From the NCBI GenBank assembly GCA_029865965.1, contig JARXAJ010000066.1, positions 1 to 47,699 of the forward strand: a stretch of 47,699 nt of DNA. The letters run 5' to 3'. Source of the stretch: Aquabacterium sp. GTDB lineage: Bacteria > Pseudomonadota > Gammaproteobacteria > Burkholderiales > Burkholderiaceae_C. The notes beneath the pieces are model-generated. The model had not been told where the DNA came from. It saw nothing but the letters and a program-made list of their open reading frames with translations, and did not search any database. Both the position numbers and the translations under genes were made by a program. How positions within the stretch are numbered: position 1 is the stretch's first letter; each line of letters starts with the position of its first letter. Positions 5,060 through 47,699 of this stretch are shown one piece after another.

Positions 5060-5117
5060 TTGCCCCGCGCCGGGCCACGCAGTTCAGCCACACAAGCCCG
5101 CGACCTGGAGCCGAGCG

Positions 5118-5621: not shown

Positions 5622-5631
5622 CCGGACGGGT

Positions 5632-6606: not shown

Positions 6607-6615
6607 GTGGGGGTG

Positions 6616-7125
6616 TCATGAAGGGCGGTCAAGGCGCAGCACCGGCCAGCCCAGGGCCTGGGCCTCGGCCAGCAGGCGGATGTCCGGGTCCACCACCACC
6701 GGGTGGCCCACGGCCCGCAGCAGCGGCAGGTCGTTGGCCGAATCGCTGGCGGCGGCCGTCAGCGCGGTGATGACGCGGTTGGTGGCGGTGCTCAGCACCA
6801 GGGTGTGGCTGGCATCGCGGTGTTGCGCCACCAGGGCGCGGGCAGACGCCGGCAGGCGCGGCAACACCACCTGCTGCAGGAAGCGCTGCAGCCAGGGTGC
6901 CCAGAAGCCCGGGCTGCGCCTGCCCAGCGTGCCGACATGGAACTGCGAGAAGTCGGCCACCGACACCGTGCCGGCGCGGTAGCCGGCGTCCATGCGGGCA
7001 TTCAGCGCCAGCTGGTCCGGTGGCTGCAGGCCCTGGGCGACCAGGAACTCGCACCACAGCACATCGCTGTCACCGGTCAGCAGGGTGTTGTCGAGGTCGA
7101 AGACGGCCAGGGTGCTGTTGTTCAT
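6616..7125 (-). CDS. HAD-IB-like phosphatase lacking its middle segment
   Basis: A 169-aa protein that starts like an HAD-IB phosphatase. Motif I is AVFDLDNTLLTGDSD, motif II is LSTATNRVIT near residue 116, and motif IV is SDSANDLPLL near 130. Usual members are about 215-230 aa and have roughly 50 residues between motifs II and IV, including the motif III lysine. Here ATNRVITALTAAA runs directly into SDSANDLPLL, so motif III and part of the core are gone without loss of frame. The start overlaps the eutC stop by 4 nt, so it is translated with eutBC. Family members release phosphate from small phosphomonoesters. This copy may be inactive or may have a changed function. Confidence 0.7.
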   Translation of the reverse strand: MNNSTLAVFDLDNTLLTGDSDVLWCEFLVAQGLQPPDQLALNARMDAGYRAGTVSVADFSQFHVGTLGRRSPGFWAPWLQRFLQQVVLPRLPASARALVAQHRDASHTLVLSTATNRVITALTAAASDSANDLPLLRAVGHPVVVDPDIRLLAEAQALGWPVLRLDRPS

Positions 7126-7919
7126 GCGCCTATGCCGGGTTGTGCCGCCGGCCCGCCCAGCAGCGCCAGCGCGCTGTCGTCCTTCAGCCCCACGCCGGTC
7201 AGGCGGCGGCGCAGCGCCTCGGTGGCCAGCCAGGCCAGGCGCTGGGCGGCCACCACCGGCGGCAGGCCGGCGGGGCGGATGTTGCTGACGCAGTTGCGCT
7301 GGGCATCGTGGCAGCCCAGCTGCGGCGCATGGGTGAGGTAGGCGCCCAGGCTGTCGGGCGAACTGAGGCCGGGCCGCTCGCCCAGCAGCACCAGCACCAG
7401 CCGTGCCTGCAGCAGCGCGCCGATCTCATCGCCCAGTGCCACCCGGGCTTGCGTGGCGATGACCGGCAGCGCCAGCGTGAGGCGGCCGTTCAGCGCCGCG
7501 CGCAGAGCCTGCAGCACCGGCACCGCATGCCGCTGCAGTGCCACGGCCGACAGGCCGTCACCCAGCACCACCGCCAGGTCCACCGGGCCAATGCCCAGGG
7601 CCTGCAGCGCGTCGGCACTGTCGGGTGCCAGGCGGCGGCCAAAGTCAGGGCGGCGCAGGTAGACCGTGCGGCTTGCGGCGCGGCTGTGCACCACGGTGCT
7701 GGCCCAGCCGGCCACGGCCAGGTCGGCCTGCAGCGCCGGCACATCCAGCGCCACGTGCACCGCATCACGCGCCTGGGCATGGGCAGCGGCAAAGCGCAGC
7801 ACCTCGTGCGTGGGCAGGGCGGCACCGGCGCGGCCCAGGGCGATGCGGGCGGGGGTGTGGCGGCGCAGCTCGGCCCAGGGGTCGGGCGGCGGGGTGGTGT
7901 CTTGCGGCAGGCTGGTCAT
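7122..7919 (-). CDS. eutC: ethanolamine ammonia-lyase small (light) subunit
   Basis: A 265-aa protein with the EutC signatures TPARIALGRAG, LPTHEVLRFAAAHAQARDAVH, GDGLSAVALQRHA, VLLGERPGLSSPDSLGAYLT and RNCVSNIRPAGL. EutC pairs with EutB to form the adenosylcobalamin-dependent enzyme that converts ethanolamine to acetaldehyde and ammonia. The ATG overlaps the eutB stop by 4 nt, indicating coupled translation. No eutA reactivase, eutT, permease or microcompartment genes are visible, so this is the simple non-compartment form found in many beta-proteobacteria. Its position directly behind phnW is unusual (see findings). Confidence 0.93.
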   Translation of the reverse strand: MTSLPQDTTPPPDPWAELRRHTPARIALGRAGAALPTHEVLRFAAAHAQARDAVHVALDVPALQADLAVAGWASTVVHSRAASRTVYLRRPDFGRRLAPDSADALQALGIGPVDLAVVLGDGLSAVALQRHAVPVLQALRAALNGRLTLALPVIATQARVALGDEIGALLQARLVLVLLGERPGLSSPDSLGAYLTHAPQLGCHDAQRNCVSNIRPAGLPPVVAAQRLAWLATEALRRRLTGVGLKDDSALALLGGPAAQPGIGA

Positions 7920-9316
7920 GGCGCCGGCCCGTCCAGCCAGGGGCTGAAGCCCTGGGTGAGCGCAGGCCGCGCCGCCACCGGCTGCAAGCGGCCCTGGCCA
8001 TCGGTGAGGCCCTGGCGCTGCAGCCAGGCTTCGAATTCGGGTGCGCGCTGCAGGCCCAGCAACTGGCGCACGAACAACGCGTCGTGGAACGAGGTGCTCT
8101 GGTAGTTCAGCATCACGTCGTCGGCGCCCGGCACGCCCATCATGAAGTTCAGCCCGGCGGTGGCCAGCAGCACCAGCAGGTTGTCCATGTCGTCGCTGTC
8201 GGCTTCGGCATGGTTGGTGTAGCAGATGTCGCAGCCCATCGGCAGGCCCAGCAGCTTGCCGCAGAAGTGGTCTTCCAGCCCGGCGCGGATGATCTGCTTG
8301 CCGTCGTACAGGTATTCGGGCCCGATGAAGCCGACCACGGTGTTGACCAGCAGCGGCCGATAGCGCCGCGCCACCGCATAGGCGCGGGCTTCCAGCGTCT
8401 GCTGGTCCACGCCGTGGTGGGCGTTGGCCGACAGCGCGCTGCCCTGGCCGGTCTCGAAGTACATGCAGTTGTCGCCCAGCGGCCCGCGCCGCAGCGACAG
8501 CGCCGCGGCATGGGCTTCATCCAGCAGCGCCAGGCTCACGCCGAAGCTGGTGTTGGTGCCCTGCGTGCCGGCGATGCTCTGGAACACCAGATCGACCGGT
8601 GCGCCCTGGTCGATGGCCTGCAGGGTGTTGGTGACATGGGTCAGCACGCAGCTTTGCGTGGGCACCTGGTGGGTGTGGATCAGGCCGTCCAGCAGGTGCA
8701 GCAGGTCCACCAGCGCCGGCACGCTGTCGGCTGCCGGGTTGATGCCGATGACCGCATCGCCGGCGCCGTACATCAGCCCGTCAAGCATGCTGGCGACGAT
8801 GCCGGCCGGGCTGTCGGCCGGGTGGTTGGGCTGCAGCCGCACCGCCAGGTGGCCGGGCAGGCCGATGGTGTTGCGAAACCGCGTGACCACATTGACCTTG
8901 CGCGCCACCGCGATCAGGTCCTGGTTGCGCATCAGCTTGCTGACTGCGGCCACCATCTCGGGCGTGAGGCCGGGCGCCAGTGCGGCCAGCCCCGGCGTGG
9001 TGGCAGCGTCGCCCAGCAGCCAGTCGCGCAAGCCACCCACGGTGAGGTGGGCCACTGGCGCAAAGGCGGCGGCGCTGTGGCTGTCGATGATCAGGCGCGT
9101 GACCTCGTCGGCCTCGTAGGGCACCAGCGCCTCTTGCAGAAAGGTGGCCAGCGGCAGGTCGGCCAGGGCCAGGCGGGCGGCCACGCGCTGGGCCGCGCTG
9201 TCGGCGGCCACGCCGGCCAGCTCGTCGCCCGAGCGTGCGGGCGTGGCCTTGGCCAGCAGCGTGGCCAGGCTGTCGAAGTGGAAGGTCTCGCTGCCGAGTG
9301 TGGCGCGGTAGGGCAT
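7916..9316 (-). CDS. eutB: ethanolamine ammonia-lyase large (heavy) subunit
   Basis: A 466-aa protein with EutB landmarks: NKLMRNQDLI-like text (VSKLMRNQDLIAVARK), RLQPNHPADSPAGIVASMLDGLMYGAGDAVIGINP, ETGQGSALSANAHHG, GFIGPEYLYDGKQIIRAGLEDHF and MGVPGADDVMLNYQSTSFHD (each shown only in part). These form the TIM barrel that holds the substrate and the B12 cofactor. Length matches the family. The start is an ATG 31 nt after the phnW stop, and it overlaps eutC by 4 nt. It acts in the cytoplasm with EutC to split ethanolamine, giving nitrogen and a two-carbon unit. Placement in the phn run suggests coordinated use of AEP and ethanolamine. Confidence 0.94.
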   Translation of the reverse strand: MPYRATLGSETFHFDSLATLLAKATPARSGDELAGVAADSAAQRVAARLALADLPLATFLQEALVPYEADEVTRLIIDSHSAAAFAPVAHLTVGGLRDWLLGDAATTPGLAALAPGLTPEMVAAVSKLMRNQDLIAVARKVNVVTRFRNTIGLPGHLAVRLQPNHPADSPAGIVASMLDGLMYGAGDAVIGINPAADSVPALVDLLHLLDGLIHTHQVPTQSCVLTHVTNTLQAIDQGAPVDLVFQSIAGTQGTNTSFGVSLALLDEAHAAALSLRRGPLGDNCMYFETGQGSALSANAHHGVDQQTLEARAYAVARRYRPLLVNTVVGFIGPEYLYDGKQIIRAGLEDHFCGKLLGLPMGCDICYTNHAEADSDDMDNLLVLLATAGLNFMMGVPGADDVMLNYQSTSFHDALFVRQLLGLQRAPEFEAWLQRQGLTDGQGRLQPVAARPALTQGFSPWLDGPAP

Positions 9317-9347
9317 GGGTTGCAGTGTGCCAGCGCGGCAGCGCCTG

Positions 9348-10460
9348 TCAGGCGGGGCTGGTGGGGATGCCCATCTCGTGCAAGGTCTCGCCCACGGCGT
9401 TGACCGCCTGCTGCATCTCCAGGCTGCCGATGGCGCCGATGCAGCCCACGCGGAAGGTGTCCACCGTCGTCAGCTTGCCCGGGTAGAGCATGAAGCCGCG
9501 CCGCTTGGCCGCCTGGTAGAAGCGCTGGAAGTCATAGGCCGGGTGCGCCGGCGCATGGAAGGTGACGATGATCGGCGCCTGGTGGTCGGGCTTCAGGAAG
9601 GGCTTGAGGCCCAGCTGGCGCATGCCGCCAATCAGGGTGGCGCAGTTGGCGGCATAACGCGCCAGCCGGGCGGGCTGGCCGCCTTCCTCGACAAACTGGC
9701 TGATGGCCTCGGCCAGCGCCACCACCACATGGGTGGGCGGGGTGAAGCGCCACTGGCCGGTTTTTTCCATGTACTGGTGCTGGTCGTGCAGGTCCATCGC
9801 CAGGCTCTGGCTGTTGCCGGCGCAGCCGGCCAGCACCGCCTGGCGGATGAACACGAAGCCCATGCCCGGCACGCCTTCCAGGCACTTGCCGCTGGCGGCC
9901 ACCAGGGCGTCGAAGCGCACCGTGCGGGCGTCGATGGGCAGCGCCGCAAAGCTGCTCATCGCATCGACGATCAGGCCCTTGCCGTGGCGTTCACACACCG
10001 CCGCCACATCGGCCAGCGGGTTCTCGACGCCGGCACCGGTCTCGCAGTGGATCAGCACCACATGGGTGATGCTGGCATCGGTGCGCAGGCGCGCGTCCAG
10101 CACGGCGGGCGACACCGGGGCATCTTCGGCAAAAGCCACGGTGCTGACGCGCCGGCCCATCATCTGGGTCAGCTTGCCGGCGCGTTTGCAGTAGGCGCCG
10201 TTGTCCAGCACCAGCACATGGCCGTCCTTGGGCACCACCGTGGCCACCGCGGCTTCCACGCTGAAGGTGCCACTGCCCTGCAGCGGCACCACCACATGCG
10301 TGCCGTGGCCGTGCACGATGTCGAGCAGGCGGCTGCGCACGCCGGCCGTCACCGCGTTGAAGTCGGCGTCCCATGATCCCCAGTCGTGCAGCATCGCCAG
10401 CTTGGTGCGCAGCGTGGTCGTCAGCGGGCCGGGGGTAAGCAGGATGCGGTCGCGGTCCAT
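9348..10460 (-). CDS. phnW: 2-aminoethylphosphonate:pyruvate transaminase
   Basis: The track ORF begins at 10547; the protein clearly begins at [15 protein letters not shown] (ATG at 10460), giving 370 aa. The PLP-lysine motif reads [16 protein letters not shown], matching the PhnW pattern SANKCIQGVPGFGFV. Other blocks are [28 protein letters not shown] and [13 protein letters not shown]. PhnW converts AEP and pyruvate to phosphonoacetaldehyde and alanine in the cytoplasm, the first step of AEP breakdown. The gene lies 16 nt after phnU and 31 nt before eutB. No phosphonoacetaldehyde hydrolase gene (phnX) is visible, so the aldehyde is presumably oxidised by PhnY and then cleaved by PhnA, both encoded divergently. 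Confidence 0.95.
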
Positions 10461-36674: not shown

Positions 36675-38510
36675 ATGCTGTCCATCGACCAACTGCAAGT
36701 GGAACTGGATGCCGAGTCGGGCATCGTGCGCGCCATCGACGGCCTGGCCCTGGCCATCCAACGGGGCGAGACCTTCGCCCTGGTGGGCGAATCCGGCTGC
36801 GGCAAGAGCATGACGGCGCTGGCCCTGATGCGCCTGCTGCCCGACAGCGGTGCGGTGACCGGCGGCGACATCACGCTGGACGGCGACGACCTGCTGGCCA
36901 TGCCTGAATCGGCAATGCGCGCGGTGCGTGGCGGGCGCATCGGCATGATCTTCCAGGAGCCCGGCACCAGCCTGAACCCGGTGCTGACCGTGGGCCAGCA
37001 GATGCGCGAGACCATCGAGACGCACACCGCCCTGCGCGGCGATGCCGCCCGCGCCAAGGCCATCGACTGGCTGCGCCGCGTGGGCATCCCCGAGCCCGAG
37101 CGCCGCTTCGACGACTACCCCTTCCGCATGAGCGGTGGCCAGAAGCAGCGCGTGATGATCGCGATGACCCTGGCCGCCGAGCCCGACTACCTGGTGGCCG
37201 ACGAGCCCACCACCGCGCTGGACGTCACCATCCAGAAGCAGATCCTCGACCTGCTGCGCGACTTGCAGCGGGAGCAGGGCATGGGCCTGCTGCTGATCAC
37301 CCACGACCTGGCCGTGGTGGCCGGCATGGCCCAGCATGTGGCGCTGATGTATGCCGGCCAGATCATCGAGGTGGCGCCGGCGGCGCAGTTCTTTGCCACC
37401 CCGCGCCACCCTTACGCCCAGGCCCTGCTGCGGGCGCTGCCCGACAGCCAGCGCCGCGGCCAGCCGTTGGCGGCGATTGCCGGCACCGTGCCCCCGCTCA
37501 CGCAGGCCTTTAGCGGCTGCCGGTTTGTGCCGCGCTGCGGCTTTGCCCAGGCGGTCTGCCACAGCCAGCAGCCTGAGTTGCTGGGTGCTGCGGGCGACCA
37601 GGTGCGCTGCCTGCTGCTGCAGGCCGGCGGGCCGGGCCTGGTCGCGACAACTGCAGCAGCCGGGGTGGCGGCGCCGCCAGCTGCTGCCACGGCTGCCAGA
37701 CCAGCGGCCACCGGGGCGCCGTTGCTGCAGGTGGTCGGCCTGAGCGTCAGCTTCCAGTTGCGCAAAGGCTTCCTGCAGAAGCAGCCGCCGCGCTTCGATG
37801 CGGTCAAGGGCGTGTCGTTCCAGGTGGCGGCCGGCCAGACCCTGGCGCTGGTGGGCGAATCTGGCTGCGGCAAGACCACCACCGGCAAGGCCATCGTGCA
37901 GTTGCTGCGCGGCCAGGCACTGATCGAAGGCCAGGCCCTGCTGGAAGGCCAGAACCTGTTTGACCTGGACGGCGCCGCGTTGCGCGAGGCCCGCCGCACG
38001 GTACAGATCATCTTCCAGGACCCGTTTGCATCCTTGAACCCGCGCATGCGGGTGGCCGAGATCCTGGACGAGGGCCTGGCCGCGCTGCAGCCCGACACCA
38101 CGCCGGGCGACCGCCGCCAGCGCATCGAGGCCATCGCCGAGCAGGTGGGCCTGCGCCGCGACGCGCTGCAGCGCTGGCCGCATGAGTTCTCGGGCGGGCA
38201 GCGCCAGCGCATTGCCATCGCCCGTGCGCTGGCGGTCAACCCGCGGCTGATCGTCTGTGACGAGCCCACGTCGGCGCTGGACGTCAGCGTGCAGGCACAG
38301 ATCCTGAACCTGCTGCGCGAACTGCAGCGCGAGCTGGGAGTCAGCTACCTGTTCATCACCCACAACATCGCGGTGGTGGAGTACATCGCCGACCAGGTGG
38401 CGGTGATGCGGGCAGGGCGCATCGTGGAGCAGGGGGCGTGCGCGGATGTGCTGGAGCAGCCGGTGGACGACTACACCCGCACGCTGCTGGCGGCGGTGCC
38501 GCGGCTGTAG
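36675..38510 (+). CDS. double ABC ATPase for peptide-type import (OppD-OppF/YejF-like)
   Basis: 611 aa with two ATPase halves. Half 1 (1-320): Walker [11 protein letters not shown], signature [13 protein letters not shown], Walker [12 protein letters not shown], and the oligopeptide C-terminal block with [14 protein letters not shown], whose cysteines resemble the family Fe-S site. Half 2 (about 350-611): Walker [13 protein letters not shown], signature [15 protein letters not shown], Walker [14 protein letters not shown] and H-loop [13 protein letters not shown]. It energises the two upstream permeases. The last part of this gene is the intact parent or sibling of the two decayed copies at 39021-39379 and 40087-40660 and so forms the left border of the accessory region. 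Confidence 0.93.
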
Positions 38511-38841
38511 GCTGGCAGCGCGCCGGCCTGTCAGCCTGCGGGCGCTGGCCCAGATAGCCCAGTCGCTCCAGGCGATCGAGTCGGTCGTGCATGGGCCAGT
38601 CTTCGAAGGGTTCCAGCAGCACGGCAAGCGTCGCCGGCAGCAGGCGTTCGCCCACGGCATCCTGCAGTTTCATGAAGCGGTAGAGGATCTGGTCGAGCAG
38701 ACGCACCAGCGCTGGGTTGGCCTCCAGGTCTGCCCAGGGCAGGGTTGGCAAGCGACCCCAATCAGCCAGCGCGAGTTGCAGGGCCGCCGCGTGGCGCCGG
38801 CTTTCCCAGCAGGCCGATTCCAACCTGGCCGCAGCAGTCAT
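38511..38841 (-). pseudogene. truncated HEPN-domain (HepT-like) protein
   Basis: From the ATG at 38841 the frame reads MTAAARLESACWESRRHAA, then ILYRFMKLQDAVGERLLPAT and DRLDRLERLGYLG. The latter resembles VARFVRLQDTLGDKLLPGV / SLVRAERLGWVES in the HEPN protein at 46623-47138. The coding similarity ends near 38511, where the frame enters the antisense of the ABC ATPase 3' end, so the catalytic R-X4-H motif (present in the other copy as RNFMIH) is missing. The start overlaps the MNT stop by 4 nt. It is a broken toxin/HEPN partner. Confidence 0.7.
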
Positions 38842-38990
38842 GCGCGGGCCAGCTCGATCCAGAGATCGACATCGCCGCCGCGGCGTGCGTCATCCAGGCG
38901 CGATCCGAACAGGCTGATCCTGCTGTCTGCGGGCAGCACCGCCTTGGCAATGTCGGCAATGTCCGCTTGCTCCAAAAGGGTGAGACGCAT
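38838..38990 (-). pseudogene. truncated MNT-type nucleotidyltransferase
   Basis: Not in the ORF track (50 codons). It reads MRLTLLEQADIADIAKAVLP, then the nucleotidyltransferase core LFGSRLDDARRGGDVDLWIEL, with GSR and the DxD metal pair visible. It stops after IELARA. The paralog at 47135-47456 continues for about 41 more residues, so this one lacks its C-terminal half. It sits in the usual MNT-HEPN order with a 4-nt overlap. MntA/HepT pairs are type VII TA systems in which MntA AMPylates the HEPN RNase; here both halves are damaged. Confidence 0.75.
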
Positions 38991-39020
38991 CGGCACAGAT
39001 TACGGCGCCGGCGAGGTTGA

Positions 39021-39379
39021 AAGCCAGCGCCCGAGCGTTGGCGCTGCAGCCTCGCCGGATCGTCTGCGACGAGCCCACGTCGGCGCTGGACGTCAACATG
39101 CAGGCGCCGGTCCTCAACCTGCTGCGCGCACTGCAGCGCGAGCTGGGTGTCAGCGACCTGTTCATCACCCACAACATCGCGGTGGTGGAATACATCGCCG
39201 ACTTCGTGGCGGTGATGCGGGCAGGGCGCATCGTGGAGCAGGGGGCCTGCGCGGATGTGCTGGAGCGGCCGGTGGACGACTACACCCGTACGCTGCTTGC
39301 GGCGGTGCCCAGGCTCCAGCCGTTGACGGCGGCGCTGGGCAACCGGCTCCAAGCGATGTCGCACCGATTGACATCATGA
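39021..39379 (+). pseudogene. decayed copy 1 of the ABC ATPase 3' end
   Basis: From about 39021 the plus strand matches the last ~95 codons of the 36675-38510 gene: [49 protein letters not shown] and [16 protein letters not shown] count 8 differences in the 86 residues from IVCDEP to VPRL. It has no Walker A or signature motif, so it cannot be a working ATPase. It runs past the normal stop for about 20 codons (LQPLTAALGNRLQAMSH...). It lies between the MNT/HEPN remnant and fitAB. Confidence 0.88.
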
Positions 39380-39380
39380 T
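39373..39380. promoter_or_regulatory. candidate FitA operator
   Basis: The 8-bp perfect palindrome ATCATGAT lies 18 nt before the FitA ATG and overlaps a TTGACA (39368-39373). FitA-type RHH antitoxins bind inverted repeats over their own promoter; the site is suggestive only. Confidence 0.3.
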
Positions 39381-39398
39381 ATTTTTCAAGGGATGACC

Positions 39399-39650
39399 AT
39401 GGGTCAGTTCACCGTTCGCAACATCGAAGATGACGTCAAGGCGCGGCTGAAGCGCCGTGCGGCGTCCCATGGCATCAGCATGGAAGCCGAGGTTCGGGAA
39501 ATCCTGCGCAACGCGGTCAAGGATGACGACCTGTCTGCCGGCATGGGGCTGGGCACCCGGATCGTCGCCCGGTTTGCGGGGGCCGGGCTGAACGAACCCC
39601 TGCTTGAATTGAAGGGCCAAGGGCCTCAGGCCATCACCCTCGAAACATGA
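39399..39650 (+). CDS. fitA: FitA-like ribbon-helix-helix antitoxin
   Basis: About 83 aa. The ATG at 39399 is preferred over 39393 because AAGGGA then lies at normal distance. The N-terminus GQFTVRNIEDDVKARLKRRA followed by HGISMEAEVREILRNAV is the FitA/Phd-like RHH DNA-binding domain, and the C-terminal tail (GMGLGTRIVARFAG) binds the PIN toxin. The stop overlaps the toxin ATG by 4 nt. It probably represses its own promoter. The module is intact and sits between two decayed ATPase 3' ends. Confidence 0.9.
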   Translation: MGQFTVRNIEDDVKARLKRRAASHGISMEAEVREILRNAVKDDDLSAGMGLGTRIVARFAGAGLNEPLLELKGQGPQAITLET

Positions 39651-40063
39651 TCATTCTTGATACCAACGTGTTGTCGGAGTTGATGCGGCGCCAGCCCGCG
39701 CCTGCCGTGCTGCGTTGGCTGGACCTGCAGCCGTCCCAGTCGGTCTGGATCACCACCATCACCCTGTTTGAGAGCCGACTTGGACTGGCGCTGTTGCCGC
39801 CAGGACAACGGCGGGCGAGCTTGGCGCAGGCCTTTGATCAGTTGTTGACGATCGACCTCGAGAACCGTGTTCTGCGCTTCGACGCAGAGGCTGCCGCGCA
39901 GGCCGCGCTGCTGGCGGCCGATTGGCAACGCAACGGTCGTCCAGTGGACCTCCGCGACATTCAAATTGCCGGCATCGCTCAGGCGCGACGCGCCACGCTG
40001 GCGACCCGGAACCTGCAGCACTTTGAAGGGCTGACTGTGGCGTTGGTCGATCCCTGGGCCTGA
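39647..40063 (+). CDS. fitB: FitB/VapC-type PIN-domain toxin
   Basis: 138 aa, PIN fold. Acidic residues are visible in MIILDTNVLSELMR (Asp5), FESRLGLALLP (Glu near 43), RPVDLRDIQIAGIA (Asp near 104) and the closing TRNLQHFEGL. The family cleaves RNA, often initiator or other tRNAs, when freed from its antitoxin. It forms a complete TA pair with the upstream RHH gene (4-nt overlap). 24 nt after its stop the second decayed ATPase copy begins. Confidence 0.9.
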   Translation: MIILDTNVLSELMRRQPAPAVLRWLDLQPSQSVWITTITLFESRLGLALLPPGQRRASLAQAFDQLLTIDLENRVLRFDAEAAAQAALLAADWQRNGRPVDLRDIQIAGIAQARRATLATRNLQHFEGLTVALVDPWA

Positions 40064-40086
40064 GCGCGAACGCTGCCCGGGGCGCC

Positions 40087-40660
40087 GAGGCGGGTCGGGC
40101 TGAGGCCAGACCACCAGCGGCCAGGCCACCATGCAACTTGTGCGTGGTCAGGCCCAGATCGATGGCCAGCCGTTGTTGAACGGCCGCAACATGGTCGACC
40201 TGGAAGGGGCCGCGCTGCGCAACGCCCGCCGCACGGTGCAGATCATCTTCCAGAACCCGATCGCCAGCTTGAACCTGCGCATGCGGGCGGCAGAGATCCT
40301 GGACGCGGGTCTGACCGCGCTGAAGCCTGACACCGCGCCGAGCGACCGTGGCCAGCGCATCGCCATCGCCCGCGCGCTGGCGGTCAGCCCGCGGCTGATC
40401 GTCTGTGACGAGCCCACGTCGGCGCTGGATGTCAGCGTGCAGGCGCAGATCCTGAACCTGCTGCGCGAACTGCAGCGCGAACTGGGTGTCAGCTACCCGT
40501 TTATCACCCACAACATTGCCGTGGTGGAGTACATCGCCGACTTCGAGGCGGTGATGCGGGCTGGGCGCATCGTGTAGCAGGGGGCAAGCGCGAATGTGCT
40601 GGAGCGGCAGGTGGACGCGTACACGCGGGCTTTGCTGGCGTCTGCGCTGCGGCTTTTAGG
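40087..40660 (+). pseudogene. decayed copy 2 of the ABC ATPase second half
   Basis: Similarity starts at the Walker A region, where [12 protein letters not shown] has become G-G-S-G-stop-G-Q-T-T-S-G-Q: a nonsense codon plus loss of the catalytic Lys. It continues through VQIIFQ and IASLNLRMRAAEILD to [12 protein letters not shown] and [13 protein letters not shown]. About 33 codons, including the ABC signature FSGGQ, are deleted in frame, exactly between two near-identical CAGCGCAT stretches of the intact gene. A second stop (GAG to TAG) follows RIV, and the tail to about 40660 still resembles the ATPase end. The track ORF 40131-40577 is the longest open part. Confidence 0.88.
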
Positions 40661-41068
40661 GCACTTACCTGCCCTTGCTTTCGGCTGCACCGGCCCATGT
40701 CGTTTCCGCAGGCGCTGACCTTGCTAGCGAAGATGTTGCACCAGACCAACGCCTGCAGGAAGTGGTTCTAGGTGCGGGCCTCTAGGTTTTGGCGGGCCAG
40801 GTCTGCCGCCAAGAACCCATCGCGCGTGCAAGTGGCTGTCAGTGTTTGGTAATTCAATGGTCGCTGATCCGATCCGGCACCAGGTCGTCGCGCCTTTGCT
40901 CCAGCACGGTGCGCGACAAGGGTTTCCCTAACACGAGGGGTAGGCGGCGCCCCGTGAGAATCCTGTTTACACGCCGCTAACTATCGAACGACATTGGCTT
41001 ACACAACGTGTGGTCAATCGGGCGGCTCGTCGATTCACGGATCCAACCCTCCTTCAAGGAACAGTCCA
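40661..41068. other. 408-nt intergenic stretch upstream of the TonB receptor
   Basis: No convincing gene. It contains a short hairpin AGGGCA-N6-TGCCCT (40658-40675) at the edge of the ATPase remnant and, near its end, an AAGGA ribosome site (41056-41060) for the receptor. The middle has lower GC than the flanking operons and may be debris of lost genes, but I cannot assign it. Confidence 0.4.
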
Positions 41069-43930
41069 ATGTTCAAGCGAACCTCTATCAATACTGGCGT
41101 GCTGGTGGCTCTCGGCGCCTTGACGGCCTTGCCCTCCTTTGCACAGCAGGCGGACCAGCGCGTGGAAATCACCGGTTCTAACATCCGGCGCGTGCAGGCA
41201 GAGACCGCCTCGCCGGTGCAGACGGTGACGCGCGAGGAGATCGAGCGTTCTGGCAAGACCAGCGTGGCCGAACTGCTGCAAACCCTGGCCGTGGACAATC
41301 AAGGCTCGGTGCCCACCACCTTCGGTAGCGGCTTCGCCTCTGGCGCTTCTGGCATCTCGCTGCGCGGCCTGGGAGCTGCGTCCACCCTTGTACTGGTCAA
41401 TGGTCGGCGTATCGCACCCTATGGCTTGGCCGACGACGGCCAGAAGGTCTTCGCCGACTTGAACATGATCCCGCTTGAGGCGGTCGAGCGTGTCGAGGTG
41501 CTGAAGGATGGCGCATCGTCGATTTACGGTTCCGATGCTATCGCTGGTGTCGTGAACGTCATCCTCCGCAAGGATTTTGTCGGCACTGTTTTCAAGGCGT
41601 CGGCTGGCCAGTCGCGCTACAGCGATGGCGACAACTACACCGCCGCAATCACCCACGGCTTCGGCAGCCTGACCAAGGACAAGTTCAACATCCTGCTGAA
41701 CTTCGAGGCCGGCAAGAAGGGGGCAATCTACAACCGAGACCGTGCTGACCGTGGCGTGGTGGGCAAGGGCGACCTGCGCAGCATCGGTTTCGACGCGCTC
41801 AACAGCGGTGGCGCCAATGGTGGTAACGGTGCCATTCTGGACACCAACACCGCCGTTTCGTCGACGGTGGGGAACGTCCGCAATCCGGCCACCAGCAATT
41901 ACTACAGCCGCAGCCAGCTCAATGGTGTCGATTTCACCCGCACCTTCCCGGCTGCGGATTGCGCGCTGTTCAGCAAGATCCCGCAGGGCGACCCAGGCTT
42001 TGCTGGTGGCGTCGGCTGTCTCACCGATGCGCCGCAGGATTACGGCATGGTCCAGCCTTCGCAGGACAGCCTGAATCTGTTCGGTCGTGCCACCATGCAG
42101 CTGACAGCTGATTTCGTGGGTTATGTGGAGGTGAATTGGTACAAGAATAAGTCGGTGTCCCAGACCACGCCCAGCGGTGTGAGCGGCAGCACCGGCTACC
42201 CTGGCGGGCCTGTCAGCAACGCAACGATCGCCCTGGGCGCTGCTCACCCCGACAACCCGTACTTCGGCACCGCCGCCCGGGTGCGCTACCTGGCAGCCGA
42301 TGTCGGGCGGCGCGTGAGCAATGTCGACTCCAACTTCACTCGCGTGGTTGGCGGCGTGAAGGGCACTTTCGGCGCCTGGGACTTCGACTCCGCAGTGCTC
42401 TACTCGCAGAGCAAGGTGTCCAACGACCGTACTGGTTACCTGCTGCGCGACGCCACCTTTGCCCTGCTGAACCCCAACGGTGCCAACACGCTTGTGGCAG
42501 GCCAGACCAATGCGCAAGTGGCGCAGGCGAACAATGCGGCCTATGCCGCGCTACCGGCCGGCACTTACTGGCGCATTGCAGAGAACAAGGGTCTGAACTC
42601 CGCCGCGATGTATGCGGCGCTGTCGCCCACACTGTCGAACGACGCGGTCTCCAAGACGACCCAGATCGACCTCAAGGTCTCCCGCGACCTGATGCAGTTG
42701 CCAGGCGGCATGATGGCCCTGGCCATGGGCGCGGAAGCGCGGCGTGAGTCGATCTCGCTCGAGCCGACGACGGGCACCAGCACAGGCAACGTGATCGGCC
42801 TGGGTTATTCGGCCTACTCGGGTGCCCGCACCCTGACGGCGGCCTATGCCGAAGTGTTGGCGCCGGTCACCAAACAACTGGAGTTGTCGGCCGCGCTGCG
42901 CGGTGACCACTATTCCGACGTCGGCAATTCCTTCACGCCCAAGTTCGGCGCGAAGTTCACCCCGATGCGTGAACTGGCCATCCGCGGCACCTATGCGCAG
43001 GGCTTTCGGGCACCAAGCGCTGCGGAGAACGGCAAGGGCGGTCTGGCTGCGTTCTCTACCGCGAGCGACCCATTGCGCTGCAACCTGGGTATCCTTCAGG
43101 CCTGTAGTGCGTCAAGCGTGGCGGTCATCACCTCTCCGAACCCTGCCTTGAAGCCAGAGAAATCCAAGTCCTACAGTCTGGGCCTGGTGTTCGACCCACT
43201 GCCGGGCACCAGCGCCTCGGTCGATTTCTGGCAGATCGAGCGCAGCAACGAGATCAACCAAGAATCCACTTCGGCCGCCATTGCTGCTGGCAAGGTCTCG
43301 CGCGACCCGACCACCGCCACCGCTGTGGCCGGCGACCCTGGTGCCATCACTGCGGTGCTGGCTAACTACGTGAATTCGACCAAGACCGTGGTGCGCGGCG
43401 TAGACGTGGACCTGCGGCACTCACTGGGTATGGGCGCCAACGGCAAGATCGACTTCGATCTGAAGTGGACCCACATGTTCAAGTTCGAGCGCCAGGAGAT
43501 TGACGGATCGGTGCTGAACTTTGCCGGCACGCACGGCAATTGCGACGTGACGAACTGCATCGGCACCCCGGCTGACCGCGTCAACATCGGCGCTACCTGG
43601 GCAATGGGCCCGTGGCGGGTGGGCGGTGTGGCCAACTACCGTGCGTCGATCTCGGGCAAGGACTCCAAGGAGGCTACTGACTGCCCGAGCATTTATGCCG
43701 ACGGTACCGATGCACCGGCCGGCTGCCGCCTGGCTTCGTTCACCACGGTTGATCTGACGCTGCGTTGGAAAGCATCCAACAATTTGGAAGTCTTCGGCTC
43801 GATCCAGAACCTGTTCGACCGGATTCCGCCGGTGGATGCCCATACCTACGGTGCGACCTCTTACAACCCGCTGGACTACAGCGGTGCTGTAGGCCGGTAT
43901 TACAGCCTGGGCTTGAAGTACAAGTTCTGA
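41069..43930 (+). CDS. TonB-dependent outer-membrane receptor
   Basis: 953 aa from the ATG at 41069, with AAGGA 8 nt upstream; the track start at 40994 lacks the signal peptide. Signal peptide MFKRTSINTGVLVALGALTALPSFA-QQ. The plug domain (about 30-175) has RVEITGSNIRRVQAETASPV, TVTREEIERSGKTSVAELLQ, ISLRGLGAASTLVLVNGRR and VERVEVLKDGASSIYGSDAIAGVVN. The barrel ends in LGLKYKF with the terminal Phe typical of outer-membrane proteins. It imports a ligand using TonB energy; the ligand is unknown. It lies between the two TA/3'-end arrays and looks less GC-rich than neighbouring operons. Confidence 0.92.
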   Translation: MFKRTSINTGVLVALGALTALPSFAQQADQRVEITGSNIRRVQAETASPVQTVTREEIERSGKTSVAELLQTLAVDNQGSVPTTFGSGFASGASGISLRGLGAASTLVLVNGRRIAPYGLADDGQKVFADLNMIPLEAVERVEVLKDGASSIYGSDAIAGVVNVILRKDFVGTVFKASAGQSRYSDGDNYTAAITHGFGSLTKDKFNILLNFEAGKKGAIYNRDRADRGVVGKGDLRSIGFDALNSGGANGGNGAILDTNTAVSSTVGNVRNPATSNYYSRSQLNGVDFTRTFPAADCALFSKIPQGDPGFAGGVGCLTDAPQDYGMVQPSQDSLNLFGRATMQLTADFVGYVEVNWYKNKSVSQTTPSGVSGSTGYPGGPVSNATIALGAAHPDNPYFGTAARVRYLAADVGRRVSNVDSNFTRVVGGVKGTFGAWDFDSAVLYSQSKVSNDRTGYLLRDATFALLNPNGANTLVAGQTNAQVAQANNAAYAALPAGTYWRIAENKGLNSAAMYAALSPTLSNDAVSKTTQIDLKVSRDLMQLPGGMMALAMGAEARRESISLEPTTGTSTGNVIGLGYSAYSGARTLTAAYAEVLAPVTKQLELSAALRGDHYSDVGNSFTPKFGAKFTPMRELAIRGTYAQGFRAPSAAENGKGGLAAFSTASDPLRCNLGILQACSASSVAVITSPNPALKPEKSKSYSLGLVFDPLPGTSASVDFWQIERSNEINQESTSAAIAAGKVSRDPTTATAVAGDPGAITAVLANYVNSTKTVVRGVDVDLRHSLGMGANGKIDFDLKWTHMFKFERQEIDGSVLNFAGTHGNCDVTNCIGTPADRVNIGATWAMGPWRVGGVANYRASISGKDSKEATDCPSIYADGTDAPAGCRLASFTTVDLTLRWKASNNLEVFGSIQNLFDRIPPVDAHTYGATSYNPLDYSGAVGRYYSLGLKYKF

Positions 43931-43935
43931 TGAGT

Positions 43936-43954
43936 CAGCAACGGGCCGTTGCTG
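43936..43954. repeat. short perfect palindrome after the TonB receptor
   Basis: CAGCAACGG-G-CCGTTGCTG, a 9-bp inverted repeat, begins 6 nt after the receptor stop. It has no T-tract of its own and may stabilise the mRNA end. Confidence 0.45.
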
Positions 43955-44002
43955 GCACCGTGTCCGGGTCTTGCGAAACTAGGTCAGTGCTCGAAACCTA
44001 TG

Positions 44003-44035
44003 GCAACGCCCAGGCCTGCCTGGGCGTTGCGCTTG
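44003..44035. terminator. probable bidirectional terminator hairpin
   Basis: GCAACGCCCAGGC pairs perfectly with GCCTGGGCGTTGC (13 bp, 2-nt centre). It lies between the TonB receptor (plus) and SDR remnant A (minus), which converge here. T-tracts are weak on both sides, so termination strength is uncertain. Confidence 0.55.
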
Positions 44036-44047
44036 ATGCAGCTGGCC

Positions 44048-44362
44048 TCACTTCGGCGCCAACCGGATCGCCCCGTCCAGCCGGATCACCTCGCCATTGC
44101 GCATGTCGTTCTCAATGAGGTGCTTGACCAGCTTGGCATAGTCGGCCGGCGTGCCCAGCCGCGATGGGAAGGGCACGCCCGCCGCCAATGCATCCTGCAC
44201 CGCCTGCGGCATGGTGAACAGCATCGGCGTGCCGAAGATGCCCGGTGCGATGGTCATGTTGCGGATGCCGTTGCGCGCCAGGTCGCGGGCGATGGGCAAT
44301 GTCATGCCCACCACGCCGCCCTTGCTGGCGGCACAGGCGGCCTGGCCGATCTGGCCTTCATA
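44048..44362 (-). pseudogene. SDR 3'-end copy A
   Basis: About 104 codons, from [20 protein letters not shown] through [16 protein letters not shown] to [12 protein letters not shown]-stop, matching the C-terminus of 3-hydroxyacyl-CoA-dehydrogenase-like short-chain dehydrogenases. The Rossmann half with the cofactor motif is absent. The catalytic YxxxK is changed to C-A-A-S-K (Tyr to Cys). Its last 228 nt differ from copy C at only 6 positions by my count. It is fused in frame to a truncated PIN toxin (track ORF 44048-44692). Confidence 0.88.
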
Positions 44363-44692
44363 TCGCACCAACCGCCGTTGGCCTTGCCGGCATGATTCGG
44401 GCCTCTTCGGGGTGGCCGCAAATAGGTTGGCAGTGACCAGCTTGCCCAGCATCCGCGCTGCCTGCAGATCCTCGCTCCACAACTGTGGGCAGCCGCTGGC
44501 CAGCGCGGCCTGCACGATCAGCGCGTCGTCGAACGCCAATCCATGCGCGACGTGCAAATCAAGGGCCGACTGGATCAGCGCCGGCGAATTCCTGATGACA
44601 TCAAAGCCAGCAAAGAAGATCAGCCACCTCCGCACCAGCGCGGGCGGCAGCCGCAGCTTTCGCAGTGCCACATTCGCGAACTCCTGCAACAC
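44363..44692 (-). pseudogene. PIN toxin lacking its N-terminus, fused to SDR copy A
   Basis: It reads [38 protein letters not shown] and [22 protein letters not shown], closely matching the PIN toxin at 45786-46229 from its residue 50 on. The N-terminal 50 residues with the first catalytic Asp are gone. The stop is also lost: the frame continues into SDR copy A. It is a damaged paralog of the RHH/PIN toxin, probably from duplication of a unit PIN + SDR 3' end. The 119 nt to its right (44693-44811) hold the AbrB promoter region and nothing else clear. Confidence 0.82.
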
Positions 44693-44811
44693 CTGGGGTT
44701 CGCCACGCTGAACAGCGGGCCTGGCCGTTGGCCTCGTGGCGCACGTCGCATTTGGAAGCTCCGAGTGACCACACTCAAGTATGATTACGCCAAGACAATC
44801 GGAAGAAGCTC

Positions 44812-45066
44812 ATGTTTTCTACTGTCAGTGAAAAAGGTCAACTGACTTTGCCAAAGCGGATTCGCGACCAGATGGGCATCGTTCCAGGCTCCCGCCTGCA
44901 ATTGCAGCTAGGGCCGGATGGAACACTGCAAATCCGGGTGCAAGCACGGGGTTCGGCATCGTTGTTTGGCTTGTTGTCCAGGCCCGACCAGGCCGCGCTG
45001 TCGCTTGAGCAACTCGATGGTGCGGTCACCGCATCCGTACAAAGCCGCTCCAAGGTTCGTCGGTGA
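44812..45066 (+). CDS. AbrB/MazE-type (VapB) antitoxin
   Basis: 84 aa. The SpoVT/AbrB swapped-hairpin motif STVSEKGQLTLPKRIRDQMG is followed by GSRLQLQLGPDGTLQI. The C-terminal 35 residues (SLFGLLSRPDQAALSLEQLD) would wrap the PIN toxin. The ATG follows GGAAGAAG; a possible -10 TATGAT lies at 44780-44785. The TGA stop overlaps the toxin's GTG start (GTGA). This intact module is on the plus strand, opposite to the other modules of this array. Confidence 0.9.
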   Translation: MFSTVSEKGQLTLPKRIRDQMGIVPGSRLQLQLGPDGTLQIRVQARGSASLFGLLSRPDQAALSLEQLDGAVTASVQSRSKVRR

Positions 45067-45458
45067 TTGCTGTCGATACCAATGTGCTCGTGCGGCTGAT
45101 GGTCAATGACGAGCCATCGCAAGCGGGCAGGGCCAAACAGCTTTTTGACGCCAAAGCGGGCGAAGATGGCTCGATTTGGGTCAGCGACACCGTGCTGGTC
45201 GAGTTGGTGTGGACCTTGGCGCGGGCCTACGGCCGGTCGCGCACAGAGCTCGCCACTGCGGTGCGGGCCTTGGCCTCGCACGCCACGCTGACCTTGGAGT
45301 CGGCGGTTGCCGTCAGGGCTGCAGTGGATGTATTTGAAGGCGGCGCTGCCGACTTTTCAGACTGCCTGCTGGCAGCCAAGGCGCAAGGCGCCGGCTGTGA
45401 GCACCTCTTTACTTTTGACAAGGGCATGCGGGCGCTGGCGGGCGTCAAGCTCCTGTAA
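45063..45458 (+). CDS. VapC-type PIN-domain toxin
   Basis: 131 aa with a GTG start overlapping the AbrB stop. Acidic PIN residues occur in IAVDTNVLVRLMVND (Asp5), VLVELVWTLARAYG (Glu near 47) and ADFSDCLLAAKAQGAG (Asp near 97), with the final TFDKGMRALAGV. The family cuts RNA when free of its antitoxin. It forms a complete TA pair with the AbrB gene. SDR copy B converges on it 64 nt away. Confidence 0.9.
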   Translation: MIAVDTNVLVRLMVNDEPSQAGRAKQLFDAKAGEDGSIWVSDTVLVELVWTLARAYGRSRTELATAVRALASHATLTLESAVAVRAAVDVFEGGAADFSDCLLAAKAQGAGCEHLFTFDKGMRALAGVKLL

Positions 45459-45522
45459 GTGCCCCCTGGCCGGCCGGCGCCAGCCTTCCCCTGCCTCCCC
45501 CGGAGACCAAGGAAAGTGGCGG

Positions 45523-45789
45523 TCACTTCGGTGCCAGCCGGATCACCTCACCGTTGAGCATGTCGTTCTCAATGATGGGCTTGACCAGCTTGGCATCCTC
45601 GGACGGCTTGCTCAGCCGGCTGGGGAATGGAACACCCGCCGCCATTGCGCCCTGCACCGCCTGCGGCATGGTGAACGGGGCCGGCGTGCCGAAGATGCCC
45701 GGCGCGATGGTCATGTTGCGGATGCCGTTGCGTGCCAGTTCGCGAGCGATGGGCAGTGTCATGCCCTTCGCCCGATCTGGCGCCGTCAC
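45523..45789 (-). pseudogene. SDR 3'-end copy B
   Basis: It reads [40 protein letters not shown] and [14 protein letters not shown]-stop. Relative to copies A and C it lacks 18 nt coding DGAIRL, lost between two GATCCGGCTG direct repeats, and about 30 nt near the YxxxK motif. Its left edge (GACGGCGCCAGATCGG) starts at the same SDR position as copy A, exactly at the stop codon of the adjacent PIN toxin. It has diverged clearly more than A from C. Confidence 0.86.
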
Positions 45790-46229
45790 ATGGGGCCCAC
45801 TGGTCCAGATGCAAATGGGTTGGCAATGGCCAGCTTGCCCAGCAGCCGCCCCGTTTGCAGGTCTTCGCTCCACAGTTGCTGGCAGCCACTGTCCAGCGCG
45901 GCCTGCACGATCAGCGCGTCGTAGAAGGCTAGGCCATGCGCAATGTGCAGGTCCAGCGCCGACTGAATCAGTTCCGGGGAGTTCCTGGCGACATCGAATC
46001 CGGCGTAGAAGCTCAGCCGCTCCCGCACCAGCGCAGGTGGCAGTCGGAGCTTTCGCAGTGCCACGTTCGCGAACTCCTGCAGCACCTGGGTCGAGATCAC
46101 GCCCGTACCCTCGCGGCGCAATCGGCTGATCAGTGCAATGGCTGCAATTTGCTTGACGGGTTCATCGCCGGCATCGGCATAGACCAGCACATTGGTGTCC
46201 AGGAAACTTCGCATCGCCGATCCAAACAT
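45786..46229 (-). CDS. PIN-domain toxin of the RHH/PIN pair
   Basis: About 147 aa from ATG 46229 ([15 protein letters not shown]); the inner ATG at 46214 is also possible. PIN features: [15 protein letters not shown] (first Asp), [15 protein letters not shown] (Glu), [13 protein letters not shown] (Asp) and [13 protein letters not shown]. The C-terminus ([11 protein letters not shown]) differs from that of the paralog because the coding frame meets the SDR copy B; its TGA lies at the SDR junction. The ATG overlaps the antitoxin stop (TGATG). Apparently intact. Confidence 0.88.
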
Positions 46230-46456
46230 CAACGCCTGGCATTGGCCTCGTCCCGGTCAAATCGCCAGCCGTTCAAACGGCCGGGGCTGGCGCGCGCAGA
46301 GCGTTCGAACGCTGCCGTCTGTACATCCTGCTGGGTCAAGCCGGCAAGCTCTTCCAGGTGGTCACGCACCGCCTGGTTCAAGCTCTTGCCCATGGCCTGC
46401 GCAGCCTGGCGAGCACGCTCTGCCACGCGTTCATCGATGGACAAGGTGATGTTCAT
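46229..46456 (-). CDS. ribbon-helix-helix antitoxin
   Basis: 75 aa. MNITLSIDERVAERARQAAQ followed by MGKSLNQAVRDHLEELAG is a CopG/RHH-like DNA-binding domain; the tail (ERSARASPGRLNGWRFDRDE) is the probable toxin-binding region. GGACCTCC lies directly upstream of the ATG. It is translationally coupled to the PIN toxin. Its promoter carries clear inverted repeats, consistent with autoregulation. Confidence 0.87.
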   Translation of the reverse strand: MNITLSIDERVAERARQAAQAMGKSLNQAVRDHLEELAGLTQQDVQTAAFERSARASPGRLNGWRFDRDEANARR

Positions 46457-46470
46457 GGAGGTCCGAAGCT

Positions 46471-46520
46471 CACAAGTAATTTGTGCACACAGTTTATGTG
46501 TGATTTAGCGCTTCGGTCAA
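46471..46520 (-). promoter_or_regulatory. promoter and operator of the RHH/PIN module
   Basis: On the minus strand: -35 TTGACC (46515-46520), 18-nt spacer, -10 TAAACT (46491-46496). Directly downstream are two overlapping palindromes, TGTGCACA (46482-46489) and CACAA-GTAAT-TTGTG (46471-46485), between the -10 and the ATG, where an RHH antitoxin would repress. Confidence 0.6.
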
Positions 46521-46533
46521 GGCGGCGGTTGTG

Positions 46534-46602
46534 TCAATTCGGCGACAGCCGGATCACCTCTCCGTTGAGTGGGTCGTTCTCGGATGCCATTGCGCGCCCA
46601 GC
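46534..46602 (-). pseudogene. SDR 3'-end copy D (short, internally deleted)
   Basis: The minus strand reads ARNGIR joined directly to [15 protein letters not shown]-stop. The roughly 45 codons between are missing, and the 18-nt DGAIRL segment is also missing as in copy B. It lies between the HEPN stop and the RHH/PIN promoter. Too short for the ORF track. Confidence 0.75.
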
Positions 46603-46622
46603 TTTGCGGCCCGTCTGTGCTT

Positions 46623-47138
46623 TCATCGTGGGTTGGTTGACGGCAGGTTCAATGTCTCCCACAGCACCAGGTCTGCCGACGTCTTCGCCGTGCCTTCCAG
46701 CAGCGGCACGGCCAGATGGCCTTTGTGCAGGGCGTTGGCCAGCACCGACATGTCACGCACGTACTCGTGGATCATGAAGTTGCGCAGTTGCCAAGCGGCC
46801 AGCCATTCGGCTGCCGATTCAACCCAGCCAAGGCGCTCCGCACGGACCAGGCTGTCGATAGCAGGGCCAACAGGCTCGGCCAGCCATGCCAGGACGCCCG
46901 GCAGCAACTTGTCGCCCAGGGTGTCTTGCAGGCGAACGAATCTTGCGACGAAGGCGTCGACGCGCTCACCAAGGTCGATGTCCTGGGCCAATGTGGCGGC
47001 CCGCTCGGCGTCCATTGGCGAGGAAAACAGTCGCGCGTCAGTGATGCGCAGCAACGCAGCCTCTACGAGCACGGTCTCTGCCAAATGAACCAGCTTGTCC
47101 CCCGGTTGCGAGCGCAAACCCAACGCGTGAGCCGTCAT
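46623..47138 (-). CDS. HEPN-domain (HepT-like) protein of an MNT/HEPN pair
   Basis: 171 aa, largely helical. It shows FVARFVRLQDTLGDKLLPGV and the HEPN RNase motif R-X4-H in QLRNFMIHEYVRD near residue 120, followed by a tail (ADLVLWETLNLPS). In MntA/HepT systems the HEPN protein is an RNase toxin kept inactive by the nucleotidyltransferase, which adenylylates a Tyr close to the R-X4-H site; HEYVRD supplies such a Tyr. The ATG overlaps the MNT stop by 4 nt. Unlike the copy at 38511, it is full length. Confidence 0.85.
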   Translation of the reverse strand: MTAHALGLRSQPGDKLVHLAETVLVEAALLRITDARLFSSPMDAERAATLAQDIDLGERVDAFVARFVRLQDTLGDKLLPGVLAWLAEPVGPAIDSLVRAERLGWVESAAEWLAAWQLRNFMIHEYVRDMSVLANALHKGHLAVPLLEGTAKTSADLVLWETLNLPSTNPR

Positions 47139-47456
47139 CGCAGTTCAATGCCCTGGCTGCGGGCGGTGCGGATGAGTGCGGTCTCTTTTGACAGCGGGTC
47201 GGTCACGACCACATCGATTTTGCGTTCGCCAATTGCCAACTGCAGGCGCGCGCCTATGCGTCCGGACACTGCCAGCTTGTCGTTGGTCGCCTCAGGCAAC
47301 TCGATCAGCAAGTCAATGTCGCCGCCGCGCAAGTCATCGCGGGTGCGGGAGCCGAAAAGGCTGACCTTTGCGAGAGGGCCTGCAACCTCCGTCGTGATGC
47401 GGCGGATGGCGGCGGCTTCTTGGGGGGGTGATGCGCGTCAGGTCGATTCTAGGCAC
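47135..47456 (-). pseudogene. MNT-type nucleotidyltransferase with a frameshift in a C7 run
   Basis: Reading from GTG 47456 gives MPRIDLTRIT, but a run of seven C (complement 47422-47428) shifts the frame. With six C the protein would continue P-Q-E-A-A-A-I-R-R into VSLFGSRTRDDLRGGDIDLL, IGERKIDVVV and the stop at 47135 (about 106 aa). The GSR and DxD catalytic motifs are intact after the shift, and no start codon lies in that frame before GSR. It may be a true pseudogene, a slipping (phase-variable) tract or a sequencing error. It lies 15 nt after SDR copy C. Confidence 0.78.
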
Positions 47457-47471
47457 GCCGTCATGATCGAC

Positions 47472-47699
47472 TCACTTCGGCGCCAGCCGGATCGCCCCGT
47501 CCAGCCGGATCACCTCGCCATTGAGCATGTCGTTCTCGATGATGTGCTTGACCAGCTTGGCATAGTCGGCTGGTGTGCCCAGCCGCGATGGGAAGGGCAC
47601 GCCCGCCGCCAATGCATCCTGCACCGCCTGCGGCATGGTGAACAGCATCGGCGTGCCGAAGATGCCCGGTGCGATGGTCATGTTGCGGATGCCGTTGCG
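47472..47699 (-). CDS. SDR-family dehydrogenase, C-terminal 75 codons (copy C; 5' part off the window)
   Basis: It reads [19 protein letters not shown], then [18 protein letters not shown] and [22 protein letters not shown] in part. This is the C-terminus of a short-chain dehydrogenase like the 3-hydroxyacyl-CoA dehydrogenase (HSD10-type) group. No lesion is seen, so it may be the intact gene, but the window ends before the catalytic and cofactor parts. If intact, it is the right-hand parent of copies A, B and D. MNT starts 15 nt after its stop. Confidence 0.75.

Follow-up and report, generated by a model that had tools for sequence, protein, structure and literature searches.

The 3' ends of two convergent genes in an Aquabacterium species may have served as capture sites for toxin-antitoxin (TA) modules. 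The window analyzed here is an entire contig of 47,699 bp (C17) from a draft genome (G000; 317 contigs, 88% complete), in which an ABC transporter ATPase gene on the forward strand and an SDR gene, which enters at the right edge on the reverse strand, are convergent neighbors. Self-comparison of the window and profile searches confirmed the arrangement described in the original prediction, namely three copies of the ABC 3' end and four of the SDR 3' end, with a TA module in every gap. The repeats were defined by the self-comparison, and the putative TA modules in the gaps were assessed with Pfam, NCBIfam, sequence motifs and a fold model. The window's own genome was compared with 20 congeneric genomes (approximately 20 sister species), and the named relatives recovered with the ABC protein were Rubrivivax-like Burkholderiales. 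Control DNA of 316 kb from G000 (280 kb of other stretches and window positions 1-36000) contained no split gene-end duplication; the repeats present there comprised one intergenic repeat, a duplicated FKBP domain and the homology between LivF and LivG. Set against this control DNA, the arrangement of gene ends and TA modules is more than chance. That both gene ends captured TA-bearing DNA through a homologous anchor on one side and an illegitimate joint on the other is judged an open call that leans slightly towards yes. The recurrence of TA modules behind the same genes, accompanied by broken copies of the gene ends, suggests that the modules were captured by ordinary recombination, with no need for a specialized transposition enzyme.

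The intact ABC gene (36675..38510, + strand) encodes a peptide-type ATPase with two ATPase domains (ABC_tran, oligo_HPY), and its repeated segment is the 3' end at 38203-38506. The first gap holds an MNT/HEPN module (38520..38996, - strand). This module is present as predicted but not intact. It is a remnant with 96% DNA identity to the region of the sister genome G004 in which the pair is intact (L043; HEPN at 128-604 with RNRLAHEY, MNT at 601-924), relative to which approximately 165 and 150 bp have been lost, including the HEPN Rx4H motif. Behind it lies the displaced ABC end termed copy 2 (39023..39315, +; 90%), which begins 296 nt before the stop codon. The second gap contains a FitA-like RHH antitoxin (39393..39650, +; PF22513, 5.9e-19) and a FitB/VapC-type PIN toxin (39647..40063, +), and it is closed by copy 3 (40089..40654, +). 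The latter starts 656 nt before the stop codon and is the longer copy, as had been predicted, but it is not a single block, as 40089-40370 (80%) and 40351-40654 (89%) are separated by an 84-bp internal deletion relative to the gene. The ABC copies start at several points of the gene (q1138, q1180, q1540-1545, q1600 and q1635), and the direct repeats around modules measure 130 to approximately 656 bp, differing by module.

Similar arrays were found at the orthologous ABC gene in three of the 20 congeneric genomes. G004 carries an ABC end, MNT/HEPN and a second ABC end, and G011 has the order ABC gene, FitAB fragment, ABC end, MNT/HEPN, ABC end, FitAB and ABC end. In G014, an ABC end is followed by RHH/PIN, a further ABC end that matches the first at 97.7% across 132 bp, a region with a second PIN gene and an ABC piece. 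All eight gaps that were read at the ABC gene in the four array-bearing genomes (G000, G004, G011 and G014) contain TA genes; the TA families in homologous gaps are partly unrelated and both orientations are present. Duplicated ends without TA modules, the observation named beforehand as speaking against joint entry, were seen at neither the ABC nor the SDR gene; at the ABC site, four genomes had both and 12 neither, the latter retaining a single 3' end with no TA recognized. As a separate observation in G011 (C597, oriented 3846-3880; L039), the intact ABC end is joined inside fitA and the ABC protein stops out of frame in fitA. The downstream flanks gave no guide to which ABC ends are native and which are new, the intergenic DNA being too diverged.

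The second array lies on the reverse strand towards the right end of the window. SDR copy A, comprising the last 105 codons (44047-44362, -; self-comparison), is the one farthest from the SDR gene and is adjoined by a PIN toxin fragment (44418..44697, -) that is 83% identical to the intact PIN sequence at 45811-46090. The fragment and copy A read as one 214-codon open reading frame (44048-44692), a chance fusion from rearrangement. In the same gap, an AbrB/MazE-type antitoxin (44812..45066, +; PF04014) is paired with a PIN toxin (45063..45458, +; PF01850, 9.8e-15). Between copy B (45522..45766, -; 88% to A) and copy D, a short remnant (46533..46602, -; self-comparison match 46533-46581), lie a PIN toxin (45786..46232, -; PF01850, 1.9e-11) and an RHH-like antitoxin (46229..46456, -; DUF6364, slightly under the Pfam cut-off). 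The last gap encodes a HEPN toxin with the Rx4H motif RNFMIH (46623..47138, -), which has homologs at the same locus in G004, G006, G011 and G019, and an MNT-like nucleotidyltransferase antitoxin with an uncertain 5' part (47135..47332, -; PF01909, weak at E 0.1). The Rx4H motif is invariant in the five homologous HEPN proteins, and a fold model of the G004 homolog (pLDDT 83) had HEPN-MNT complexes as its best PDB matches (probability 1.0, TM 0.60, though with E at 0.035); in motif and predicted fold, the HEPN protein next to the nucleotidyltransferase, the latter with the GSx..DxD motif, agrees with an MNT/HEPN module. Copy C (47471..47699, -; 97% to A) is cut by the contig end at 47699 and presumably represents the end of the intact SDR gene, whose 5' part is absent from the G000 assembly. 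Besides G000, the orthologous SDR gene has a duplicated 3' end in G011, G019 and G009. The displaced end lies behind MNT/HEPN in G011 and G019, the latter with an additional PIN gene, and in G009 a 45-bp SDR end lies behind a frameshifted PIN-like sequence that was recognized by eye only and not by a Pfam search of this gap. In the relatives, the ABC and SDR genes bound one variable interval that is usually filled by a TonB-dependent receptor gene, which in the window lies between the two arrays (40994..43930, +).

The ABC copies themselves point to homologous recombination between species through the gene ends. The displaced copies are mosaics in which the TA-side end is common to species and the remainder resembles the resident gene. 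At its TA-side end, copy 2 is 89-92% identical between G000 and G004 over the first windows, but its identity to the intact gene there is 67-69%. Farther along, the G000 copy is 92-98% identical to G000 copy 1, and the G004 copy matches G016 (92-100%) and its own copy 1 (97%). The MNT/HEPN DNA of the two genomes is 95.8% identical (460/480). On its left, copy 1 is 84% identical upstream (P 5e-4) and 97% identical over its last 30 nt; on its right, copy 2 starts at 91% and its right part is at 87% (P 5e-5). Both identity switches fall inside the ABC gene ends, and a 96% tract with edges inside gene ends of 84-87% identity is the expected outcome of recombination by way of those ends. Two G011 copies have the 84-bp deletion of copy 3 as well. 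The unit composed of FitAB and a deletion-bearing ABC end is confined to G000 and G011, where it always stands at the ABC gene with the same left edge (G011 copy 4), and no further FitAB locus was detected in the 21 genomes. On the branches of six ABC copies, 36 nonsynonymous changes were counted versus approximately 55 expected under neutrality, a deficit which argues that these ends passed part of their history in functional genes, either through exchange with such genes or because they originated from them.

Capture of this kind would begin with a donor fragment from a related cell that carries a gene 3' end followed by a TA module. The fragment would pair with the resident gene through the shared 3' end, the homologous anchor, and its other end would be joined, with little homology, to a point within the resident gene that precedes the stop codon. 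The gene would remain whole, with the TA module placed directly after the stop codon and the resident end displaced downstream as a dead fragment, and repeated rounds would build arrays of TA modules and gene ends. Once two gene ends surround a TA module, RecA recombination could move the module to another genome and could also exchange, duplicate or delete it. The mosaics and the tract edges support the side of the homologous anchor, whereas the illegitimate junction is old; we infer this initial joining step, as well as the way in which the DNA was taken up and a selective advantage of the TA modules. Only tentatively do we suggest that such modules could amount to enzyme-free, homology-addressed TA cassettes, in which the 3' end of a host gene acts as an address label, spread between species proceeds by RecA recombination at that gene and arrays grow behind conserved genes without damage to them.

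Outside the window, three of the 18 other PIN/HepT places in G000 are spanned by a direct repeat (P 0.006 versus control stretches, ancestry ignored). The cleanest of these other sites is an NDP-sugar epimerase gene, the 3' end of which is repeated over 130 bp (85%) with RHH/PIN between the copies. The insert of approximately 1.0 kb consists solely of RHH/PIN and the displaced end, and the site is empty in G003, G004 and G019, where the next gene follows within tens to approximately 200 bases. Two checks proposed with the original prediction were thereby answered in its favor: another G000 gene shows a complete end, a TA module and a partial end, and relatives with an empty site and one 3' end exist both here and among the 12 genomes at the ABC gene. 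A fadJ-like fragment (L204) with AbrB/PIN between 76-bp repeats is a weak case, lacking an empty site with the same neighbors. At a pglL-like gene, the 5' end is repeated over 114 bp with VapBC between the copies; this duplication was dropped as proof of joint entry, since G017 has the TA module alone. The moaC locus (L201; G000:C24:2500-14000, 7853-10167), where a 96% repeat surrounds a Phd/ParE-like TA module and hsdR fragments, was rejected as a further example of capture. The corresponding site in G003 (G003:C14:8805-39211; L339, L340) is occupied by a 29-kb island with type I restriction genes and a tyrosine integrase (PF00589, 2.6e-21) adjoining the displaced moaC end, and the fragments in the G000 insert are approximately 90% identical to this island, which identifies the locus as a decayed tyrosine-integrase island. 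Integrase islands can therefore produce the same picture.

Contrary to what had been proposed, duplications around TA modules are not restricted to gene 3' ends, given the pglL 5' end and an operon junction in G012. In this AbiE-like type IV TA operon (L422; G012:C111:125200-135600, 3146-7130), the antitoxin 3' end together with the toxin start recurs in two additional copies. VapBC separates the copies, a DUF1778/GNAT pair lies farther out, and part of the region is enclosed by two 160-bp repeats; the families were assigned by eye. Three loci of other kinds were also observed. In G003 (L453; G003:C3:265700-276000), about ten attC-like repeats of approximately 120 bp (GCCTAAC...GTTAGGC) are spaced 0.5-0.9 kb apart around a PIN gene, an array that is probably a chromosomal integron judging from these repeats. 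In G006 (L435; G006:C569, 8895-8976 and 10576-10658), VapBC lies between two intergenic repeats of 83 bp that contain a GC-rich hairpin, a possible extragenic insertion with target duplication. A PIN/AbrB module of G000 (L206; G000:C122:3500-15000, 5577-6933) is tandemly duplicated (681 bp, 81%), with one toxin truncated.

Several observations weigh against gene-end capture or limit its reach. At the ABC site, G006, G019 and G015 carry a TA module or TA remnant without a displaced end, and a decayed ABC copy behind it was looked for in these three genomes and none was detected. The orthologous epimerase TA in G006 is followed by the next gene after 31 bp, with no displaced end, and G017 carries the pglL TA module without the duplication. 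The proposal that TA modules enter together with a copy of the target's 3' end is supported in part by the co-occurrence at two genes in several species and by the inter-species tract edged in repeats, but these solitary modules do not bear out TA arrival and duplication as one event. A TA module without a copy could have arisen if the junction fell on the anchor's far side or if the copy was lost afterwards. The SDR copies derive from the local gene and have decayed neutrally, with 12 nonsynonymous changes in copy B versus 12.4 expected, i.e. decay without constraint; the SDR ends are accordingly dead and a foreign donor is unneeded there. The same holds for the epimerase copy, which is of its own lineage. 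The association of TA modules with duplications at the ABC site (Fisher P 0.009) ignores shared ancestry, and the comparison relies on small numbers and on one representative genome per species, in the form of drafts that break at repeats. The pattern is also uncommon elsewhere, as four of 38 PIN loci in the relatives are spanned by repeats, comprising the gene-fragment duplication in G012, a weak unclassified case in G001, one intergenic case and one integron-like case. Since gene-fragment duplications around PIN modules are this uncommon outside the sites described, gene-end capture would be one route of TA accumulation among others.

The local origin of the SDR and epimerase copies would also fit tandem duplication, in which faulty replication or repair doubled, in place, the 3' end and a TA module already behind the gene, and one of the two TA copies subsequently disappeared or gave way to another, without the TA having brought the gene end. 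Such a process is in keeping with the unit of PIN gene and SDR end that occurs twice in the window (83-88%), where the PIN fragment and the intact PIN gene each adjoin an SDR end, with the tandem PIN module elsewhere in G000 and with the TA modules lacking a copy at the G006 epimerase and G017 pglL genes. It is nevertheless considered unlikely, as unrelated TA families in neighboring gaps are not obtainable by duplication alone, the arrays terminate in a gene end and not in a TA module, and both the inter-species tract and the shared deletion-bearing unit require transfer. The moaC locus illustrates precisely the history assumed by another explanation, namely that an element with a tyrosine recombinase entered the gene 3' end and later lost everything but the TA module. 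For the window, this origin appears improbable: the ABC-SDR interval of 18 genomes contained no integrase, the repeats at one gene lack a single core site, with starts approximately 200, 296 and 656 nt upstream of the stop codon, modules lie in both orientations, and the epimerase insert holds nothing beyond the TA module and the displaced end. The earlier statement that no recombinase is visible holds for what is coded at the ABC-SDR locus, apart from an IS-type DDE-transposase fragment in G011, the sole recombinase-type sequence there.

A novel mobility mechanism dedicated to TA modules, directed at stop codons and copying the end of its target, would explain why modules start just after stop codons and why the same genes are reused with different TAs. 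The modules, however, share no ends, motif or enzyme, the pglL 5'-end case and intergenic cases exist, and the edge at the stop codon is accounted for by recombination together with selection for intact genes, so that such a mechanism is regarded as very improbable. The least credit is given to independent events or assembly error, that is, a chance coincidence or a misassembled metagenome bin. The draft does break at repeats, but similar arrays are present in four separately assembled genomes, the copies are 10-20% diverged and the control DNA of G000 contains no such duplication. Gene-end capture through a homologous anchor remains the explanation favored here.

It has long been asked how solitary chromosomal TA modules come to enter a genome when no mobile element is visible. 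The loci described above offer comparable snapshots across the sister species, ranging from empty sites and single insertions to arrays, mosaics and decayed remnants, and they make it testable whether ordinary homologous recombination through a neighboring gene end suffices for TA entry. The succession of gene end, TA module and gene end provides a search signature for other genomes. A literature search, which left most subscription journals outside its reach, returned no account of TA modules at the ends of unrelated conserved genes by such a route.

Among known systems, elements that integrate at a gene 3' end and restore it, such as the moaC island of G003, likewise leave an intact gene, an insert after the stop codon and a displaced end on the far side; unlike them, the ABC, SDR and epimerase sites have no integrase, a variable repeat start and inserts of approximately 1 kb. 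Integron cassettes, as in the G003 array, also form series of TA-sized modules separated by repeats, but the repeats of the window are coding gene ends and not attC sites, module orientation varies, and the attC-like unit of G003 had no match in the window. According to a review, some restriction-modification systems that have no link to mobile elements insert with long variable target duplications of approximately 100 bp (PMC3874152); PMC3031569 and PMC1643837 report this as well, with Nobusato 2000 and Furuta 2010 as the cited sources. Shared with the present case are a selfish addiction module at an otherwise empty site, long and variable direct target repeats and the lack of a recombinase. 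In the window, by contrast, the repeats are ends of conserved genes, the same genes are reused across species, arrays are formed and recombination runs through the repeats; as the cargo is a TA module instead of a restriction-modification complex, the arrays represent a variant of this insertion type and not a member of it. Duplications generated by transformation have been demonstrated in pneumococcus (PMC3784515). Immunity arrays of type VI secretion systems and orphan Rhs ends are ascribed to homology-facilitated illegitimate recombination and later homologous exchange (PMC5361080). They resemble the arrays of the window in the conserved upstream anchor, the inserted module, the retained displaced part, the serial arrays and the mosaic exchange, and the immunity arrays differ in that the part displaced there comes from the toxin gene of the module itself, whereas here the anchor is an unrelated ABC, SDR or epimerase gene. 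Measured against these systems, the capture of TA modules at gene ends would not be the wholly undescribed mode that the original prediction had proposed, and its nearest precedents appear to be the insertion of restriction-modification systems and the immunity arrays of type VI secretion systems.

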